DNA from: Burkholderiaceae bacterium
Lineage (GTDB): Bacteria; Pseudomonadota; Gammaproteobacteria; Burkholderiales; Burkholderiaceae_B
Direction: 5' to 3'
Length of the DNA: 32,722 bases
Assembly: GCA_030158305.1 (NCBI GenBank)
Contig: JAOATE010000066.1
Span: forward strand, 1-32,722
Shown here: piece by piece, positions 10,108 to 19,941 of the stretch
Numbering within the stretch: the first letter of the stretch is position 1
Layout of the letters: every line of letters starts with the position of its first letter
Notes under the pieces: generated by a model
Databases searched by the model: none
Told to the model about the DNA's origin: nothing
The model's input: only the letters and a program-made list of their open reading frames with translations
Program-made: the position numbers and the translations under genes

Positions 10108-11370
10108 ATGGCAATCGCAACACAGGCACTTCTGCGCGACGCAATGCGTCGTTTAAATATGACCCGTGATGCGTTTGCAGAGCGAATTGGCTGTCGGCGC
10201 AGGACTCTCGATAGTTGGTTGCTGCCCGATGAGTCCAGTGAATACCGAGCGATGCCAGAGGTCGCGCGTCGCTATGTCACTGAAATCCTGGCCAATTTGC
10301 CTGACAGCACGCCAAGTGGCTCGACCGCTTCAGAGATGTCTGACAATCATTTACTCTCGGTGGATCAACTAAGCCGAGAGTCGGTGGAAGAGTTATTTTG
10401 GCTCGCGGATGTCATGCAGCCCATCGCACGTCGTCAAAAAGTGACGCGCGTACTAGAAGGCGCTGTCCTGGCAAATCTATTTTTCGAAGCCAGTACCCGG
10501 ACGCGCATCAGCTTTGGTGCCGCGTTCTGTCGGCTCGGCGGTTCAGTCTGCGACACGACAGGTTTTACTTTTTCCTCCATGGCCAAGGGTGAGTCGATTT
10601 ATGACACCAGTCGCGTAGTGAGCGGCTATGTGGATGCAATGGTGATTCGCCACCCAGAGAAAGGCGCCGTCGCGGAGTTTGCGCGCGCGACCAATATCCC
10701 AGTCGTGAATGGAGGTGATGGTCCGGGCGAGCATCCGAGTCAGGCGTTGCTGGATCTATATACGATTCAGCGCGAGTTTTCACGTCTTGGAAAATTAATC
10801 GATGGCGCGCATATCGCGATGGTGGGTGATCTGAAATATGGTCGCACCGTGCACTCGCTGATTAAGTTATTGTCCTTGTATCGCGGTTTGACGTTTACCT
10901 TGATCGCGCCCCAGTCTTTGGAGATGCCAACTGAGATTGTGGATGTGGTGAGTCGGAACGGTCACGTGATCGAGTTCAGTGACTCGCCAGCAAATGGCTT
11001 GGCCAAAGCCGATATTTTGTATGCGACGCGTATTCAAAAAGAACGTTTCGGCGAAGAGGCCATCGATGGCTATGGTGCTGAGTTTGAAATCAATCAAAAA
11101 TTGGTGAACCAGGCGTGCAAGAGTGATGTGGTGATCATGCATCCTTTACCGCGCGATGGTCGACCCGGTTCTTATGATTTGAGTGTTGATTTAAACGCAG
11201 ATCCTCGTTTGGCGATTTTCCGTCAAACGGACAATGGCATTCCGATTCGCATGGCGATTTTTGCCAAATTGCTCGGTGTTGATCGGTTGGTGCAGCGATC
11301 GATGCGGGATGTCACGTGGGTCACACCCGCGCACATTGGGCCTGACGATGCCTTGCCGGACTTCGAGTAA
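10108..11370 (+). CDS. pyrB: Aspartate carbamoyltransferase with N-terminal HTH-like extension
   Basis: Catalyses carbamoyl phosphate + L-aspartate to N-carbamoyl-L-aspartate, the committed step of pyrimidine synthesis, in the cytoplasm. The catalytic body (about residues 83-400) has the carbamoyl-phosphate loop STRTR (129-133), HPSQALLD (209-216) and HPLPR (345-349), all intact. At 420 residues it is about 110 longer than E. coli PyrB; the excess is mainly residues 1-80, where LLRDAMRRLNMTRDAFAERI and RRRTLDSWLLP look like a helix-turn-helix similar to XRE-type regulators, followed by a Ser/Thr-rich linker. I recall the same extension in other Burkholderiales. No pyrI regulatory-subunit gene follows. 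An AGGTGAG ribosome binding site precedes ATG. Whether the extension binds DNA, or mediates assembly or allostery, is unknown. Confidence 0.93.
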   Translation: MAIATQALLRDAMRRLNMTRDAFAERIGCRRRTLDSWLLPDESSEYRAMPEVARRYVTEILANLPDSTPSGSTASEMSDNHLLSVDQLSRESVEELFWLADVMQPIARRQKVTRVLEGAVLANLFFEASTRTRISFGAAFCRLGGSVCDTTGFTFSSMAKGESIYDTSRVVSGYVDAMVIRHPEKGAVAEFARATNIPVVNGGDGPGEHPSQALLDLYTIQREFSRLGKLIDGAHIAMVGDLKYGRTVHSLIKLLSLYRGLTFTLIAPQSLEMPTEIVDVVSRNGHVIEFSDSPANGLAKADILYATRIQKERFGEEAIDGYGAEFEINQKLVNQACKSDVVIMHPLPRDGRPGSYDLSVDLNADPRLAIFRQTDNGIPIRMAIFAKLLGVDRLVQRSMRDVTWVTPAHIGPDDALPDFE

Positions 11371-12350: not shown

Positions 12351-13214
12351 ATGAATAGCTTATATACAAATAACTCAAAGTTTGTTCTGAGTGCGCAACA
12401 TGTGGGTCTAGCGTACGGAGCGGGCCGTCCACTCATTGCTGATTTTTCTCTCGCAGTCGAAGCGGGTGAGATTGTCACCGTGCTTGGTCCAAGTGGTGTT
12501 GGCAAATCAAGTCTATTGCGTGTGTTTGCAGGCTTACAGCAGTCGAGTAGTGGAAAAGTTTTTGCTGGTGAAGAGCAAGTCACGGGCGCGCATCCTCGTG
12601 TCGCGATGGCATTTCAAGATCCGAGTTTATTGCCGTGGCTCACACTCGAACAAAACGTCGCCTTTGGTTTGGATTTTAAACATCAGCCCAAGCTGAGCAG
12701 GCAAGAGCTGAAGGCCCGCGTCGATTTGGCGATCCGCGAAGTTGGGCTCGAGCATGCTCGCACACGTTATCCTCGCGAGCTTTCAGGCGGAATGGCACAG
12801 CGCGCGGCACTCGCGCGCTGCATCGCTCGTCAACCTACAGTGCTGCTGTTAGATGAGCCATTTGGCGCGCTTGATGAGGTCACACGTGAAGCGATGCAGC
12901 AGTTATTGCTGCGAGTTCGCGATGATTTTGGTACGGCAGCCGTACTCATTACGCACGATATCGACGAAGCACTAAGAGTGTCGGATCGGATTGTGTTGCT
13001 CGGAGGTATGCCGGCACATGTCTACGGGCAGTGGAGATTGGATCGTCATCAGCCCAGAGATTTACTGGAGTCACCGATGCAAACTCTTCGTCTAGAAATA
13101 CTTCAGGCGTTAAGAGGATCGATTAATGGCAAATTCACACCACAGTCCTCAGTCCTTGATCTAAATCTTTTACAAAATACTTTTTCGCATCAGGAGCTCT
13201 CGCATGTGCACTGA
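12351..13214 (+). CDS. ABC transporter ATP-binding protein (NrtD/SsuB/TauB type)
   Basis: The ATPase that powers the importer encoded by the next two genes. All motifs are present: Walker A GPSGVGKS (46-53), Q-loop AFQDPSLLPWL (87-96), signature LSGGMAQRAALAR (144-156), Walker B VLLLDEPFGALD (164-175) and switch His202 in ITHDIDEA. The sequence style (DPSLLPW, LDEPFGALDE) is that of the nitrate/sulfonate/taurine family. At 287 residues it is about 20-30 longer than usual, the surplus being at the C-terminus. There is no ribosome binding site in front of the ATG, and a TAATAC hexamer ends only 8 bases before it, so a very short or leaderless transcript is possible. First gene of a six-gene block; its end overlaps the binding-protein start by 11 bases. 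Confidence 0.92.
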   Translation: MNSLYTNNSKFVLSAQHVGLAYGAGRPLIADFSLAVEAGEIVTVLGPSGVGKSSLLRVFAGLQQSSSGKVFAGEEQVTGAHPRVAMAFQDPSLLPWLTLEQNVAFGLDFKHQPKLSRQELKARVDLAIREVGLEHARTRYPRELSGGMAQRAALARCIARQPTVLLLDEPFGALDEVTREAMQQLLLRVRDDFGTAAVLITHDIDEALRVSDRIVLLGGMPAHVYGQWRLDRHQPRDLLESPMQTLRLEILQALRGSINGKFTPQSSVLDLNLLQNTFSHQELSHVH

Positions 13215-14403
13215 GTACACGACACGACGTGACATGCTTAAGCTTACCAGCCTTTTCACGGTCGCAGGCGCAGCCCCCTTGCTGTCTGCAGCGAACGCCT
13301 ACGCACAAAGTCATCCAGATCAGCCTGTCAAAATCGGCTATTTGCCCATCACCGATGCAGCGCCATTATTGATTGCACATCACAATGGTTATTTTCAAGA
13401 GGCAGGTGTCAAGGTTGAAAAGCCGACATTGTTTCGAAGCTGGGCACAACTAGCGGAGTCCTTCATCGCGGGACAAACCAATGTTGTGCATTTGTTATCG
13501 CCTATGACGGTGTGGGCACGCTTTGGAAGCAAGGTTCCCGCAAAAGTTGTGGCGTGGAACCACATTAATGGTTCGGCATTGACCGTTGCGCCGAAGATTA
13601 ATCATTTGAAAGAGTTGGGTGGCACGACAGTGGCCATTCCCTTTTGGTATTCGATACACAATGTGGTTTTGCAAGACATGCTTCGTGCAGAGGGTCTCAA
13701 ACCTGTCGCGCGACGCGTCGGCAAGGTTGAGGCTGATGAAGTGAGTCTGGTGGTCATGCCTCCTTCGGATATGTTGCCTGCTCTGGCTGCGGGCAGTATT
13801 TCTGGCTACATCGTGGCAGAGCCGTTTAATGCAGCAGCTGAATTGATGGGAGTCGGAAAGGTATTGCGCTTTACCGGTGATGTTTGGCGCAATCATGCCT
13901 GCTGCACAGTGTTTATGCATGAACGTGATTTAAATGGTCGGCCACAGTGGTCTCAAGGCGTGGTGGATGCGATTGTGCGCGCCCAGTTGTGGATTTTGGA
14001 AAACAGAGCTGAGGCTGCAAAAATATTGTCCCGTGAGAGTGGAAAGCAATACACACCGCATGGGTTGAGTGCTCTCACAAAAGTCCTCGCACCTCCAGCA
14101 AGTGATGCGCAAAGCTATTTAGCGTCGCGTGCGATCCGTCATGCTGAATGGAAAGAGGAAAGAATTGGGTTTCAGCCATACCCCTATTCAAGTTATACCG
14201 AAGCGCTTGTGACGCGTTTAAAAAGTACGACAGTCGAAGCGGATCGTGGATTTTTGAATCAGCTTGATCCTGTGTTCGCTGCAAAAGATTTGGTCGACGA
14301 TCGCTTTGTTAAAAAGGCGATTGAAGCCGTGGGTGGTTTGCAAAAATTCGGTGTGGATAGCGCGTATACACGCACAGAAACAATCGATCTTTCTAAGGCT
14401 TAA
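13204..14403 (+). CDS. ABC transporter substrate-binding protein (NrtA/SsuA type), Tat-exported
   Basis: The periplasmic ligand receptor of the importer, 399 residues. A twin-arginine signal is visible at residues 6-14 (TTRRDMLKL), followed by a hydrophobic stretch and a cleavage site near AYA (residue 34). The mature start VKIGYLPITDAAPLLIAHHNGYF is the hallmark of the nitrate/bicarbonate/sulfonate binding family. Later landmarks are VAIPFWYSIHNVVLQ, AGSISGYIVAEPFNAAAE and HACCTVFMHERDL. The family takes up nitrate, bicarbonate, sulfonates, taurine or pyrimidine precursors; the ligand here cannot be assigned. Tat export implies folding in the cytoplasm, as seen for several CmpA/NrtA-type proteins. 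The ATG lies within the end of the ATPase gene (11-base overlap), and the permease start follows 4 bases after the stop. Confidence 0.9.
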   Translation: MCTEYTTRRDMLKLTSLFTVAGAAPLLSAANAYAQSHPDQPVKIGYLPITDAAPLLIAHHNGYFQEAGVKVEKPTLFRSWAQLAESFIAGQTNVVHLLSPMTVWARFGSKVPAKVVAWNHINGSALTVAPKINHLKELGGTTVAIPFWYSIHNVVLQDMLRAEGLKPVARRVGKVEADEVSLVVMPPSDMLPALAAGSISGYIVAEPFNAAAELMGVGKVLRFTGDVWRNHACCTVFMHERDLNGRPQWSQGVVDAIVRAQLWILENRAEAAKILSRESGKQYTPHGLSALTKVLAPPASDAQSYLASRAIRHAEWKEERIGFQPYPYSSYTEALVTRLKSTTVEADRGFLNQLDPVFAAKDLVDDRFVKKAIEAVGGLQKFGVDSAYTRTETIDLSKA

Positions 14404-14407
14404 GCAA

Positions 14408-15163
14408 GTGAGTACGAAAGCTTTTAGCCTTGTACGAGGTTTAGCAGGACTGATTGTGCTCATGGCGCTTTGGTGGGTCCTGACGGTCCCTTTTTCAGCA
14501 AGTACTGGCATGGTGCAGCGGTTTGCGCCCGGCCCTGCTTTGCTCACGCTGATAGAGATGCTCGGCCGTGCTGAAATTTGGACGCATATCGGGGTGAGTC
14601 TTCAGCGCGTCTTTGTGGGTCTTGGCTTTGCTTTATTGATAGGTGTGCCCTTAGGATTAGTGATGGGGAGTTCGTTAAAACTAAATGCAACGTTTTCTCC
14701 AGTATTTCAATTTTTACGCATGATCTCACCACTATCCTGGATGCCGATTGCAGTGATTGCTTTTGGTGTTGGCAATCACCCCGTCTATTTTTTGTTGGCA
14801 TTTGCCGCGGTGTGGCCGATTATGTTGAACACCATCGCAGGCGTCCGTGCGCTAGATCCTCGTTGGTTGCAGTTGTCTAAAAGCCTCGCTGCAACACGTT
14901 GGGAAACTTTACGCGGCGTCGTTTTGCCGGGCGTACTGGGTCATGTGTTGACGGGCGCACGCTTGGCGATTGGGATTGTCTGGATTGTCTTGGTGCCCTG
15001 CGAGATGTTAGGCGTGACGGCAGGACTGGGGTATTTCATTTTGGATACGCGCGACCGACTTGCATATCACGAGTTGATGGCGACGATCGTATTGATCGGG
15101 ATCCTGGGATTTATGTTGGATTGGTTGTTTAGAGAATTATGTCAATTATGGAGCAAAGCATGA
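14408..15163 (+). CDS. ABC transporter permease (NrtB/SsuC/TauC type)
   Basis: Inner-membrane channel subunit of the importer, 251 residues with about six helices. The cytoplasmic coupling (EAA-like) loop is clear around LAATRWETLRGVVLPGVLGH followed by VLTGARLAIG, which docks on the ATPase. The frame is open far upstream inside the binding-protein gene, but GTG (VSTKAFSLVRG) is the natural start: it lies 4 bases after the previous stop and puts the first helix (LAGLIVLMALWWVL) where the family has it. TGA of this gene overlaps ATG of the OsmC gene (ATGA), so translation is coupled. Consistent with the sulfonate/nitrate branch; no substrate information. Confidence 0.92.
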   Translation: MSTKAFSLVRGLAGLIVLMALWWVLTVPFSASTGMVQRFAPGPALLTLIEMLGRAEIWTHIGVSLQRVFVGLGFALLIGVPLGLVMGSSLKLNATFSPVFQFLRMISPLSWMPIAVIAFGVGNHPVYFLLAFAAVWPIMLNTIAGVRALDPRWLQLSKSLAATRWETLRGVVLPGVLGHVLTGARLAIGIVWIVLVPCEMLGVTAGLGYFILDTRDRLAYHELMATIVLIGILGFMLDWLFRELCQLWSKA

Positions 15164-15711
15164 GCACTACAAAACAAGCTGAGACTGTCAACGTTTATCT
15201 ACGTCCTATCGATGCAACAGGTCTCGCAGCATTCGCAGAAAAAGGCCGCGGAAATCCTACGGCGAAAGGCACGAATAAGGTTCATACCGTTCTAGAGGGA
15301 CAATACAGATCCCTCAATTATGTGGGTGATCATGCTCCCGTGATTGTGGACGAGCCGCTGCATTTGTTTGGTCAAAATACCGCTCCTGCACCTGGCGAAA
15401 TTGTGTTGTCGGGATTAGGTGGTTGTTTGGCTGTTGGCATTCAAGCAGTCGCCACGTGGAAACAAGTCAAGCTCACCAAGCTTGAGATTTTTCTCGAAGG
15501 TGATATCGGCAACTCGGCAGCCTGGGGGGCCGGTGGTGCGTTGGATAAGCAGCCAACCCAAATGGGATTTCAGGCTGTTCGCGTCAAGGTCAATCTAGAA
15601 GGCGATGCCTCGCAAGAAGTATTAGACGAAATTGTGAAGCATGCGAATTTTTATTCGCCTGTTGCAAATAGTATTCGCAATCCCATTCCATTTGAAATCA
15701 GTTCTGTTTAA
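15160..15711 (+). CDS. OsmC-family protein with a single cysteine
   Basis: A 183-residue OsmC/Ohr-fold protein. The peroxidatic cysteine is Cys89 in LSGLGGCLAVGIQA, which opens the long central helix. In canonical OsmC and Ohr a second, resolving cysteine sits in a CPVSN-like motif; here the aligned segment is NFYSPVANSIRNPIP with Ser166, and there is no other cysteine in the chain. It may therefore need an external thiol or electron donor, or may not be a peroxidase at all. A GGAG ribosome binding site 8 bases before ATG selects this start over the in-frame ATG codons at 15139 and 15148, and gives an ATGA overlap with the permease. Its place between an importer and two redox enzymes suggests it acts on the imported compound or a reactive product of it. 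Confidence 0.87.
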   Translation: MSTTKQAETVNVYLRPIDATGLAAFAEKGRGNPTAKGTNKVHTVLEGQYRSLNYVGDHAPVIVDEPLHLFGQNTAPAPGEIVLSGLGGCLAVGIQAVATWKQVKLTKLEIFLEGDIGNSAAWGAGGALDKQPTQMGFQAVRVKVNLEGDASQEVLDEIVKHANFYSPVANSIRNPIPFEISSV

Positions 15712-15726
15712 GTCAGAGAGTCCGGC

Positions 15727-16845
15727 ATGAAACAGTTTGAGGCAGGTAAAGAGTCACTGTTAGCTATTGTGCGTTCAATTGCACAGGGTGAGCTGTCTCT
15801 GTCTGTTCAGGAGATCGATCAGCAAGGACTTTACCCAGAGGGCGTGTTGCGTCAGCTGGCCGCGGCGGGTGGCATGAGCGCACATCTGCGCGCCCCGCAC
15901 GGCTTCAATGATTTTGGCTTGTCTATTCAATCGATTGCCGAAGTCGCGCGCGTGTGTGGTTCAACAGGTTTTATGATGTGGTGTCAGGCTGTTTGCGGAC
16001 TTTATTTGCAAGAGGCCTCGTCGGGTGCGCTGCATGGCACTCCCCTTATGCTTCATGCAACGGGCGACCGACTGGGTGGCACTGCATTGTCTAATCCGAT
16101 GAAGACATATGCCAAGATTGAGTCCTTCATGCTCAAGGCGGTGCCCGTAGAGGGAGGCTATCGAGTGACAGGGAGCTTGCCCTGGGTCAGCAATCTTGGC
16201 CCGGATCATTATTGTGGTGCGATTGCCTCGATTGCACACGATAGCGGAACGCGCGAATTAATGTTTTTGCTCCGCTGTGATGCACAAGGTGTCACGCTAA
16301 AAGAGTGTCCAAGTTTTTCAGGTATGGAGGGTACAGCTACCTACGCTTTGCATCTGAAAGATTGCTTTGTACCCGCTGAAGAGGTGATTGCTGAGCCCGC
16401 TCGACCCTTAATCAAAAAAATCAGAGCGGCTTTTGTGATGTTGCAATGTGGCATGGCGGCAGGTGTCATACAAGGTGCTATTGATTCGATGTGGGTAGTT
16501 GAAGATCAACTGGGTCATGTCAATCGCTATCTTGAAGATAGACCTGATGCGTTGCAAGAGGAGCTTGATGTATGGTTAGCTCGGGTCTTCAAGCTCGCCA
16601 AAACACCTTTTGATGATACTGATGCATTTTTTATTCAAGTGCTCGATGCACGCGCCCATGGTGCCGAGCTCAGTTTAAGGGCGGCTCAATCTGCGTTGTT
16701 GCATCAAGGTGCACGAGGCTATCTGATGAGTTCTGAAGTACAGCGTCGCGTACGTGAGTCGCATTTTGTTGCGATTGTGACACCTGCGATTAAGCATTTG
16801 CGCAGTGAGATGGCTCGACTTAGCCAGGAAACGTTGCCAGCATGA
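15727..16845 (+). CDS. Acyl-CoA-dehydrogenase-fold flavoprotein
   Basis: A 372-residue protein with the ACAD fold: an N-terminal helical domain, a middle beta-domain including VPVEGGYRVTGSLPWVSN (139-156) and the FSGMEGTATYALHLKDCFVP segment (197-216), and a C-terminal four-helix domain. These are flavin-contact regions of the superfamily. The usual ALTEP..GSD substrate motif is altered to GGTALSNPMKTYAK, and no clear catalytic base for CoA thioester oxidation is visible. ACAD-fold enzymes such as DszC and SfnC are reduced-flavin monooxygenases in sulfur-compound breakdown, and the setting next to an SsuABC-like importer makes that class plausible here; an ordinary dehydrogenase cannot be excluded. 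The gene starts 15 bases after the OsmC stop and overlaps the rubredoxin fusion by 4 bases (ATGA). Confidence 0.87.
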   Translation: MKQFEAGKESLLAIVRSIAQGELSLSVQEIDQQGLYPEGVLRQLAAAGGMSAHLRAPHGFNDFGLSIQSIAEVARVCGSTGFMMWCQAVCGLYLQEASSGALHGTPLMLHATGDRLGGTALSNPMKTYAKIESFMLKAVPVEGGYRVTGSLPWVSNLGPDHYCGAIASIAHDSGTRELMFLLRCDAQGVTLKECPSFSGMEGTATYALHLKDCFVPAEEVIAEPARPLIKKIRAAFVMLQCGMAAGVIQGAIDSMWVVEDQLGHVNRYLEDRPDALQEELDVWLARVFKLAKTPFDDTDAFFIQVLDARAHGAELSLRAAQSALLHQGARGYLMSSEVQRRVRESHFVAIVTPAIKHLRSEMARLSQETLPA

Positions 16846-18104
16846 GTGCGCTAGAAGCATGGAGGGAGTATCTCTGTAAGGCGTGTGGCTATATCTACAA
16901 TGAGCGTGATGGCGATGTGGATAGTGGATTGCAGCCAGGCACGCGTTTTGAGGATATCCCTGAGGACTGGTATTGCCCGATATGTGGTGTGACCAAAGCA
17001 GATTTTGTCTTGGTCGAAGAGGTGCGTGTGAGCGGCGTGAAGGCTCGGTCACATTATGCTAACAGCCTTCCTCGCGATGGCAGCTCATTACGTCGCTCAA
17101 GCAAGAGAAAATACGATGTAGTGATTGTTGGAGGTGGGACTGCGGCCTGGAAAACAGCGGAAGCCTTACGCGCGTTATCTCAGGAAATTTCCATTGCAAT
17201 GGTCTCGCAATGTGACGCCGATCGCTACGACAAGCCTCTTTTATCCGTTGCGATGGCACGAAACCTGTCCTTATCTGGACTCGTAAAAGAAACGGGCGCT
17301 GCAGCGGCGCTCAGGCTTGAGGTCGTTCTTTTATCGAAGACGACGGCGATTAGTATCAATGCCTCTCATCAGGTGCTTCGCACAACAATCGGCAGTATTC
17401 ACTACCAACACTTGGTGATTGCTCAAGGCGCTCAGTCTGTTTTGCCGGCGCATTTGCCGGCGGAGTATTGTTGGCGCATCAATCATCTAAGTCAATATGC
17501 ACGATTGCGTGACGCACTTGGCGCATCATCGCGTCGAGTGCTGGTGATTGGTGCTGGTCTTGTTGGCTCTGAGTTGTCTAACGATCTGGCATTGGGTGGG
17601 CACAGCGTCTCACTCGTAGATATTGCTCCGCGGCCGCTCGCGCGATTATTCGCCGAGTCAGAGCAAACAGACGCTTTATTGAAAGCGTGGGAACATCTGG
17701 CGATTAAGTTTTTTGGCAATACAGAAGTGTTAGAGGTGAAGCGATCTGCTACGCATGGTTATGAAGTGCGATTAAGCGATGATCAATATATAACAGTCGA
17801 TGAGATTGTTGTGGCAACGGGTCTAAAAACATGTGACCGTCTCGCAAACAGCGCAGGCCTGACTTGGAAAAATGGCATTGTTGTGGATCCAATCGCTCTG
17901 GTCGCCAGCGAAGCGGGTATCTATGCTTTGGGTGACTGTATTTCGATTGCTGGAGAAACGAGTCGTTTTATCGAGCCGATTGGTCGCCAGGCAAAAACTA
18001 TCGCCAGTCAGATCACGGGCGAAGCGCTCATTCCCTACAAGAATCAGCGCGTCCCTATTCGGATTAAGACTACGTCAATGCCAATGACGGTTCATTCATG
18101 CTAG
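16842..18104 (+). CDS. Rubredoxin-FAD/NAD(P)H rubredoxin reductase fusion
   Basis: A 420-residue electron-transfer protein made of two parts. Residues 8-57 are a complete rubredoxin with iron ligands Cys12, Cys15, Cys45 and Cys48 and the typical PGTRFEDIPEDWYCPIC stretch. After a basic linker, residues 90-420 form a pyridine-nucleotide disulfide-type reductase: FAD-binding VVIVGGGTAAWK, NAD(P)H-binding VLVIGAGLVGSE (233-244) and the second FAD motif YALGDC (361-366). It should pass electrons from NAD(P)H via FAD to the iron centre within one chain, like rubredoxin and rubredoxin reductase of alkane-oxidising bacteria but fused. No alkane hydroxylase is present; the natural acceptors are the adjacent ACAD-like flavoprotein or the one-cysteine OsmC protein. 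Last gene of the six-gene block. Confidence 0.93.
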   Translation: MSALEAWREYLCKACGYIYNERDGDVDSGLQPGTRFEDIPEDWYCPICGVTKADFVLVEEVRVSGVKARSHYANSLPRDGSSLRRSSKRKYDVVIVGGGTAAWKTAEALRALSQEISIAMVSQCDADRYDKPLLSVAMARNLSLSGLVKETGAAAALRLEVVLLSKTTAISINASHQVLRTTIGSIHYQHLVIAQGAQSVLPAHLPAEYCWRINHLSQYARLRDALGASSRRVLVIGAGLVGSELSNDLALGGHSVSLVDIAPRPLARLFAESEQTDALLKAWEHLAIKFFGNTEVLEVKRSATHGYEVRLSDDQYITVDEIVVATGLKTCDRLANSAGLTWKNGIVVDPIALVASEAGIYALGDCISIAGETSRFIEPIGRQAKTIASQITGEALIPYKNQRVPIRIKTTSMPMTVHSC

Positions 18105-19059: not shown

Positions 19060-19941
19060 TTAAGCCCTAAAGTCGAGTTCTCTTAAAAGTTTTGCCGTTT
19101 CCTGGTGCAGCCTGTTGGTGGGGCGAGATTTGGGTGTTGCGAGCACTAAAAGGTTGCGCATGACTGGTGGACCGATCTGTGCAAACCTAAGGTTAGACGT
19201 GTGTTTATGTTTGAGGGCACTTTCAGGCAAAATTGAACAACCTATGCCGCTCTCTACGAGTTTAAGTGCGGTATAGACGGCACCCACTTCGGCAATGATA
19301 TTGAGGCAAATATTTTGAGGCAGTAATACGGCGTCCACGAGATTGCGGATTGGATTGGATTGGCCGGGCAAAATCATTGGAAAATTTGCGAGCTCAGCCA
19401 AGCTGATTTGGCTTTTGAGTGGATAGTGATCGGGTGCGATCAAAATTAGCTTTTCTCGCATCAGTTTTTCGTATGAGAGCAATGGAGTGGGCGGTGGGTC
19501 AAAAAGTACTGCGAGATCAATGCGGCCATTGATGAGTCCATCTCTGAGAGAAACACTGAGTCCCTCAACCACAGAAATCATGGCGTGTGGCATCCGTTTT
19601 CTGAACTCTTGGACGAGAGGGACGCAGAGTCCTTCTGCGACGCGATGCGGCAAACCCACAATGACTTTTCCAGATACCGCTGTGCTCATCTCTTTTATCT
19701 GAAAGGTCGCCGTCGCCGCCGTATCAATCATGAGCTTGGCATGTGCTAGGAGGGCTTGGCCGGCCTCCGTGGGCCTAACTCCTCGGCCAGTTCTCTCAAG
19801 CAGCCTCTGTCCAAGCTCGTCCTCTAGCAAGGCAATCTTTCGGCTGATGCTTGGTTGGGCAAGATTCAAATAGATCGCGGCCTTGCTGAAGCTGCCTTTT
19901 TCGACAACAGCAATAAAGTATTCAAGCTGCTTCAGATCCAT
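19060..19941 (-). CDS. LysR family transcriptional regulator
   Basis: A 293-residue LysR regulator. The helix-turn-helix covers residues 1-60 (MDLKQLEYFIAVVEKGSF, SKAAIYLNLAQPSISRKI) followed by the wing LLERTGRGVRPTEAG; the effector domain begins at GKVIVGLPHRV. The GLPHRV/ISVVEGLSVSLRDGL pattern is the same subgroup as the LysR at 1.77 kb (Nac-like). It is divergent from the SDR-hydrolase-Bug gene set, with only 120 bases to the SDR start, and is followed by the Ala-type hydrolase, so it likely controls this catabolic cluster in response to a pathway intermediate. A 6-bp inverted repeat (CATAGC/GCTATG, 19939-19944 and 19968-19973) overlaps its start codon. Confidence 0.9.
   Translation of the reverse strand: MDLKQLEYFIAVVEKGSFSKAAIYLNLAQPSISRKIALLEDELGQRLLERTGRGVRPTEAGQALLAHAKLMIDTAATATFQIKEMSTAVSGKVIVGLPHRVAEGLCVPLVQEFRKRMPHAMISVVEGLSVSLRDGLINGRIDLAVLFDPPPTPLLSYEKLMREKLILIAPDHYPLKSQISLAELANFPMILPGQSNPIRNLVDAVLLPQNICLNIIAEVGAVYTALKLVESGIGCSILPESALKHKHTSNLRFAQIGPPVMRNLLVLATPKSRPTNRLHQETAKLLRELDFRA

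Follow-up and report, generated by a model that had tools for sequence, protein, structure and literature searches.

Introduction

According to the sections of PMC5328954 and PMC5778177 available to us, thiocyanate (SCN-) is opened in two described ways, by hydrolysis to carbonyl sulfide or through a cyanate pathway that relies on the copper enzyme TcDH. The latter, described in Thioalkalivibrio and Thiohalobacter, converts thiocyanate to cyanate and sulfane sulfur, after which cyanase takes over (sections of PMC5328954 and PMC6934394), and the TcDH gene of these sulfur oxidizers lies near copCD (copper uptake) and tatA (Tat export) (PMC5328954). Heterotrophs of several genera also use thiocyanate as a nitrogen source; in the same sections the genera are named (Methylobacterium, Ralstonia, Sphingomonas, Klebsiella and Arthrobacter in PMC5328954) and no genes are given (PMC5328954, PMC5778177). 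In Pseudomonas pseudoalcaligenes CECT5344, the putative sigma54 regulator CynF is needed for expression of cynABDS; neither OsmC nor rubredoxin is a word used in the main text on this cynFABDS cluster (PMC6627978). Here we describe a six-gene operon, at positions 12351-18104 on the forward strand of a 32,722-base stretch of DNA (the window, which is the whole of contig C66 of the 2.6-Mb genome of a Burkholderiaceae bacterium), that combines an ABC importer with a one-cysteine OsmC-family protein, a flavoprotein of the acyl-CoA dehydrogenase (ACAD) fold and a fusion of rubredoxin with rubredoxin reductase (RdR). We estimate a probability of roughly 0.55 that this operon imports thiocyanate and oxidizes it to cyanate.

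By analogy, the operon resembles the TcDH cyanate pathway in purpose, whereas its means would differ: the flavoprotein shows no signal peptide evident by eye, its electrons would come from NAD(P)H through rubredoxin, and no copper TcDH gene is present among the six operon genes. Like the class of DszC, SfnC and HsaA, the flavoprotein has an ACAD fold without the catalytic glutamate and would receive its reductant from a separate reductase; it differs in that its best sequence matches are acyl-CoA dehydrogenases and that its electrons would be delivered by a rubredoxin fusion instead of a flavin reductase. The reductase half recalls the rubredoxin and rubredoxin reductase of alkane hydroxylase systems, but here the rubredoxin is fused at the N-terminal end, the C-terminal part of the reductase is missing, and the neighboring enzyme has an ACAD fold in place of a diiron hydroxylase. 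The importer and OsmC proteins weakly match NCBIfam models of, or related to, the SAO (selenium-associated) system, which was rejected as all scores fall below the curated cut-offs (SaoX 66.8 of 300, SaoP 166 of 295, SaoA 166 of 360, OsmC_like_Se 55.6 of 95). In many relatives a sigma54 regulator, a CynABD transporter and cyanase adjoin the core, a likeness to cynFABDS as described in the available part of PMC6627978, while the window operon differs in having no linked cyn genes and an importer of a different branch. A search of titles and abstract openings, in which most subscription papers lay outside coverage, found no description of this cluster.

The six-gene operon and its conserved core

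The operon begins with the ATPase of an ABC importer of the taurine/nitrate-type subfamily (12351-13214; Pfam ABC_tran, 108 bits), followed by a periplasmic binding protein (SBP) of the NMT1_2/NrtA-CynA family with a twin-arginine signal (13204-14403; NMT1_2, 163 bits) and a permease with a GTG start at 14408 (14408-15163; BPD_transp_1, 80 bits), for which a longer alternative open reading frame (ORF) starts at a TTG at 14264. The one-cysteine OsmC-family protein comes next (15160-15711; OsmC, 75 bits), read here from the ATG at 15160, with another in-frame ATG further upstream at 15139. The ACAD-fold flavoprotein, a predicted monooxygenase (15727-16845; Acyl-CoA_dh_N, 26 bits), and the fusion of rubredoxin with NAD(P)H:rubredoxin reductase (Rd-RdR; 16842-18104; Pyr_redox_2 133 and Rubredoxin 72 bits in one ORF) complete the set. 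Between successive genes lie an 11-base overlap (13204-13214), a 4-base gap (14404-14407), an ATGA overlap (15160-15163), a 15-base gap (15712-15726) and an ATGA-type overlap (16842-16845), so that ORFs, start codons and Pfam domains confirm the arrangement given in a preliminary description of this DNA, which was made from its letters alone.

That description had read the six genes as a compact module in which an importer stands beside NAD(P)H- and rubredoxin-driven ACAD-fold oxidation, had called for a gene-neighborhood search, and had held that the idea would fall if the gene order recurred in no other genome. The order proves to be conserved. Genome contigs were scanned with an ACAD alignment; of 530 candidate stretches, 508 were relatives, and the 80 best of these, mostly from Burkholderiales, serve as named loci whose architecture was counted by tblastn with reference proteins. 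In 79 of these 80 loci RdR follows ACAD at a distance of no more than 300 bases, and in 71 OsmC stands directly upstream; OsmC is replaced by a CMD/AhpD-like protein in 7, and in the remaining 2 the DNA begins less than 200 bases before the ACAD match. All six genes occur in the same order in another three genomes of the genus (L067-L069), and the OsmC-ACAD-RdR core is found in more than 10 genera, so the order is not a matter of chance. ACAD adjoins RdR in 6 of the 11 genus genomes sampled, and within the host family, where a search at 1e-20 finds an ACAD relative in 81 of 200 genomes, OsmC, ACAD and Rd-RdR stand side by side in 10. The operon seems to end at 18104, because the six genes stay together in all four genus-level loci (the window and L067-L069) and the genes 3' of them vary, being common to the window and L068 and different in L067 and L069.

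A tree of 130 rows, in which many long branches meet and which was used only to place the window and the loci that combine CMD with RdR, groups the window with Zwartia; by ACAD, the nearest relatives of the host are a Burkholderiaceae metagenome-assembled genome, Zwartia panacis and Zwartia vadi. Five of the six CMD-RdR loci form one clade nested among the OsmC-RdR loci, and the sixth (L045) falls elsewhere. The tree, the conservation counts and the sigma54 survey given below leave out seven duplicate loci (L047-L050, L196-L198), and the conservation counts are restricted to ORFs that pass fixed limits of identity and length (77 OsmC, 31 CMD and 129 ACAD sequences). The core also sits on plasmids of Marinobacter (L042), Acetobacter (L043) and Caballeronia (L044), and its CMD form on one of Moraxella (L045); two of these plasmids are typed as conjugative and one as mobilizable, so the core may spread by plasmid.

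Association with cyanase

The module is tied to cyanase by co-occurrence. In the host family the cyanase gene cynS is present in all 10 genomes with OsmC-ACAD-RdR and in 42 of the 190 others (Fisher p = 7e-7, a value that, like the other co-occurrence p values here, ignores relatedness among genomes). In the family of G218, where almost every genus is represented by a single genome and RdR serves as the marker (OsmC was checked only in G218 itself), the corresponding figures are 13 of 13 and 36 of 107 (p = 3e-6); the 13 RdR genomes span 12 genera, and 12 of them carry RdR and cynS on one contig, 1.3-16 kb apart. The baseline for the order is 48 of 200 genomes. Among the OsmC-type named loci, cynS lies within the stretch examined in 40 of 71, and where at least 8 kb is available on each side it is linked in 34 of 51 and found elsewhere in the genome in the other 17, so that all 51 genomes possess it. 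In a genome-wide test of 24 genomes, cynS was present in 17 of 17 of the OsmC type (14 from the 51-locus set plus L082, L117 and L129) versus 2 of 7 of the CMD type.

As a control, cynS was sought in the family genomes that have only a distant best ACAD relative (about 40% identity, mostly CMD type in the loci examined) and was found in 2 of 46, which indicates that cyanase accompanies the OsmC-RdR module rather than ACAD relatives in general. No cynS match was obtained for three genomes of the family with OsmC-ACAD in which no RdR was recognized (G130, G146 and G161; L051-L054), and cynS occurs in none of 35 loci with a CMD gene, within the stretch examined. On the Marinobacter plasmid pMAD49a (L042), OsmC-ACAD-RdR-cynS shares one cluster with an importer whose SBP has 47% identity to that of the window, and L191 has the order ATPase-SBP-permease-OsmC-ACAD-rhodanese-cynS. 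In the host itself cynABDS lies on another contig, C83 (L171), where it is followed by two ORFs that by eye resemble amidohydrolase/M20 peptidases, with another ABC importer upstream. A sister operon that lacks rubredoxin reductase, CMD-ACAD-ATPase-SBP-permease, is frequent in the host family (L151-L170 and others); among the CMD-ACAD-ABC operons whose flanks were read, the flanking genes look housekeeping-like by eye.

Sulfane-sulfur genes and regulation

Of the 51 loci with at least 8 kb on each side, 33 encode a two-domain rhodanese upstream of OsmC, and in six loci from a search of the phylum (L186-L191) this rhodanese lies downstream of ACAD, in the place of RdR; a ferredoxin-reductase-like flavoprotein is nearby in L186 and L191, and none was recognized in L187-L190. 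The gene after RdR in L184 and L185 resembles the dioxygenase part of Blh (383 and 390 bits, against a whole-model cut-off of 625), and on the Caballeronia plasmid an MBL-fold protein encoded after cynS scores 104 bits with the Blh model and 94.5 with that of glyoxalase II. Host contig C61 encodes a Blh-dioxygenase-like protein, and among 23 genomes, all of them module-bearing, such a match at 1e-15 is found in 16 and in none of the other 7. This last observation lends weak support to persulfide clearance.

Of 65 loci with a sigma54 regulator gene, 60 have a sigma54 site (-24/-12, at most one mismatch) ahead of the operon, versus 0.4% of shuffles that preserve base composition only; the search covered the 350 bases before the first gene and required GG and GC at the two cores of the consensus. 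Such a site also occurs in 13 of 63 loci without the regulator gene, 12 of these 13 having OsmC ahead of ACAD, and in none of 34 CMD loci at up to two mismatches.

The importer

The best NCBIfam models for the ATPase are those of taurine (191.5 of 357 bits) and nitrate (190 of 292) transporters, both below their cut-offs. The SBP starts with a twin-arginine stretch, RRDMLK, which we take to be a Tat motif. Among solved structures it is closest to 3un6 (5e-16), a binding protein without a stated ligand, and then to the nitrate and bicarbonate transport proteins NrtA (9e-16) and CmpC (1e-14), with the taurine-binding protein far lower (4e-4). It does not belong to the SsuA family by score (92.3 bits against a curated cut-off of 163.5), its TauA score is likewise below the cut-off, and the ABC parts as a whole fall within the broad SsuA/TauB/NrtC superfamily. 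When 41 SBPs of the window type were compared with 60 of the CynA type at columns conserved in at least 90% of sequences, 47 columns carried the same residue in both, including W80, H96, P146, F147, S150, H152, N153, H231, C233 and C234, a pattern that would fit either ligands of the same class or a shared ancestry with ligands that differ. From its sequence, we predict that the SBP binds a small anion.

In many relatives a CynABD-type transporter stands next to the core instead of the window-type importer, and in two congeners (G060 and G159; L055, L056) the core is present and no importer gene was recognized within the stretch examined; judging from this gene content, the importer is a separable, swappable part of the module. 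The preliminary description had left the substrate open while leaning toward an SsuABC-type, organosulfur function; thiocyanate is the better fit, given an SBP nearer to nitrate and bicarbonate proteins and below the SsuA cut-off and a core tied to cyanase. None of the six products is an SsuD/MsuD monooxygenase or a flavin reductase, so the wiring is, as that description had noted, unlike that of known sulfonate systems. The SsuABC/SsuD sulfonate system was rejected on the SBP scores and the lack of these two enzymes.

The redox proteins

An AlphaFold2 model of the flavoprotein (pLDDT 88, pTM 0.90) places it in the ACAD fold, with a TM-score of about 0.8 to acyl-CoA dehydrogenases, to which almost all of the 50 Foldseek matches listed belong. 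The sequence profile likewise matches acyl-CoA dehydrogenases best (4e-18), and the oxygenase of 3-HSA hydroxylase only at 1.7e-6 (2rfq). In acyl-CoA dehydrogenases the catalytic glutamate lies in a C-terminal YEG(T) motif. An HMM alignment puts T352 of the flavoprotein on the catalytic glutamate of 8i4p; a threonine occupies this position in 128 of 129 relatives, within the stretch FVAIVTPA that is conserved in at least 97% of them, which argues against acyl-CoA dehydrogenation. An ordinary acyl-CoA dehydrogenase was rejected for want of this residue, and nitroalkane oxidase was dropped since it needs no reductase. The model of the sulfur-acquisition ACAD SfnB (TIGR04022) gives the flavoprotein 22.4 bits, against a cut-off of 430.9. 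That a dedicated reductase is encoded in OsmC-RdR loci suggests an electron flow into the flavoprotein, as in an oxygenase.

This reductase joins a rubredoxin and an FAD/NAD(P)H reductase domain in one ORF and is a rubredoxin reductase by its match to that of P. aeruginosa (2v3a, E 7e-44). Its residues 91-417 align to 5-328 of the 384 residues of 2v3a, from which we conclude that the C-terminal part of the reductase is missing.

In the OsmC protein (numbered from the ATG at 15139), C96 is kept in 77 of 77 relatives. All 77 have a serine at S173, presumably the usual site of the second cysteine, so the resolving cysteine of a two-cysteine OsmC/Ohr peroxidase is not present. The earlier suggestion that OsmC is a thiol protein handling a sulfur by-product is supported. 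The CMD/AhpD-like protein that replaces it has a CxxC motif in 31 of 31 sequences, and that of L121 matches a 'peroxidase-related enzyme' model with 56.6 of 81.8 bits.

Proposed pathway and alternative explanations

We infer that thiocyanate, and not a sulfonate, is the substrate, because genes for the disposal of cyanate and of sulfane sulfur accompany the core; few compounds would yield both, and thiocyanate would be the simplest of these. Its conversion to cyanate would also be the better fit because the core is linked to cyanase, to the CynABD-type transporter, and to rhodanese and persulfide-dioxygenase-like genes. In the first step of the mechanism that we propose, the Tat-exported NrtA/CynA-type SBP, the permease and the ATPase would bring thiocyanate into the cell. 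In the second, electrons from NAD(P)H would pass to the FAD of the fused reductase, on to its own rubredoxin and then to the ACAD-fold flavoprotein, a path that, up to rubredoxin, leans on what is known of these families. Reduced flavin would then activate O2, and the flavin-bound peroxide may oxidize thiocyanate at sulfur, to the level of hypothiocyanite. In the fourth step the single cysteine of OsmC would take up the oxidized SCN unit to form an S-SCN adduct, and hydrolysis at carbon would free cyanate and leave a persulfide on OsmC. The gene content, order and conservation, the lost catalytic glutamate and the one-cysteine OsmC are read from the sequences; the third and fourth steps, like the substrate, are conjecture on our part. 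Finally, rhodanese or a persulfide dioxygenase would clear the sulfane sulfur and cyanase would convert cyanate to NH3 and CO2, the chemistry of rhodanese and cyanase again being assumed by family.

Several observations weigh against this assignment. The cyanase association, whose p values take no account of relatedness, is less distinct in the host genus alone, where cynS occurs in 6 of 6 genomes with the module and in 2 of 5 without it (p = 0.06). The seven CMD-type genomes of the genome-wide test carry RdR and a window-type importer, and as cynS is present in only two of them, cyanate may not be the product of the flavoprotein in every case. In the window operon itself cynS is not linked, nor is the operon part of a cynABDS cluster; neither a rhodanese nor a persulfide dioxygenase is linked to it, and the host genome has no match to the two-domain rhodanese type at 1e-30. 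It also has no candidate sigma54 site within 350 bases upstream, so control by a sigma54 regulator was rejected for the window operon, which must be controlled otherwise. No reductase gene was recognized beside the flavoprotein relative in CMD-ACAD-ABC operons, L051-L054 and L187-L190, which weakens the argument from the reductase, as a reductase encoded elsewhere would have to serve. Between the window-type and CynA-type SBPs, 39 columns are conserved within each set yet differ between the sets, and their ligands may therefore differ. We found no growth or enzyme data for the module. In the part of PMC5328954 available to us, cyanase also adjoins thiocyanate hydrolase in Thiobacillus thioparus, and the same source warns that cyanase by itself is no proof of a cyanate route.

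Some of these points would be explained if the substrate were instead a small organic sulfur or nitrogen compound, such as an isothiocyanate, an organic thiocyanate, a thioamide or a sulfonate, with cyanate or sulfur being set free from it by the module. Among ACAD-fold monooxygenases, attack on the sulfur or nitrogen of organic compounds is frequent. This broad version of the earlier organosulfur idea, which we consider unlikely although the best placed of the alternatives, accommodates the scarcity of cynS in CMD-RdR genomes, the 39 differing SBP columns and the membership of the ABC parts in the SsuA/TauB/NrtC superfamily; it is at odds with SsuA and TauA scores below their cut-offs, the rank of nitrate/bicarbonate proteins far above the taurine binder, an operon without SsuD/MsuD or a flavin reductase, and the replacement of the window-type importer by a CynABD-type transporter in many relatives. 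Less likely again is a role in cyanide oxidation, in which the flavoprotein would be the cyanide monooxygenase that has long been postulated, turning cyanide into cyanate for cyanase to finish, with rhodanese and persulfide dioxygenase serving a sulfur-based cyanide detoxification. The tight tie to cyanase and the standing of cyanide as the classical rhodanese substrate would suit such a role, but HCN crosses membranes, which makes a dedicated ABC importer odd, and a persulfide dioxygenase would probably destroy the sulfur donor of rhodanese; moreover, neither a cyanide-insensitive oxidase nor a nit1C nitrilase was noticed among the annotated neighbors of L042, L043, L045 and L046, where no targeted search was made. 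According to the available part of PMC11049912, a cyanide monooxygenase has been proposed and its existence not experimentally demonstrated. Least probable is a defense against peroxide or other reactive species by an OsmC or AhpD-like peroxidase with its own rubredoxin reductase, the flavoprotein being an ancillary oxidase and the cyanase link a matter of shared nitrogen control only, since the peroxidases included in the OsmC and CMD/AhpD families, and the L121 match to a peroxidase-related model, are set against the single cysteine and the invariant serine of OsmC, unlike the two-cysteine OsmC/Ohr peroxidases, and against import genes and sigma54 promoters in relatives that fit nutrient use.

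Returning to thiocyanate, we put forward more tentatively, at somewhat less than even odds, that the module may represent a third, oxygen-dependent route of thiocyanate breakdown, in which a rubredoxin-fed ACAD-fold 'thiocyanate monooxygenase' would pass a persulfide to the one-cysteine OsmC and release cyanate; such a route would occur widely among proteobacteria, on plasmids too, and would provide genes for the heterotrophic use of thiocyanate nitrogen. If thiocyanate, or for that matter cyanide, is the substrate, a defined gene set makes one open question directly testable, matters for how waste water from mining and coking is treated, and brings new chemistry to the ACAD fold with rubredoxin as donor. 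A thiocyanate function could help explain how ordinary bacteria use thiocyanate as nitrogen food.

Neighboring genes

Outside the operon, a LysR regulator gene at 19060-19941 on the reverse strand, closest to NAC (205.5 of 309 bits), stands beside the operon in some Zwartia-like loci and not in all. In many loci (e.g., L138, L136 and L080) a two-component sensor and regulator pair, labeled NarX/NarL by eye, lies 3' of the gene for the CynA-type SBP, and a 504-residue ORF near the core in L183 (12978-14489, forward strand) has no Pfam match. Upstream in the window, at 10108-11370 on the forward strand, lies an ORF that by eye resembles aspartate carbamoyltransferase and whose N-terminal 75 or so residues look helix-turn-helix-like; the cluster around it recurs in Zwartia loci.

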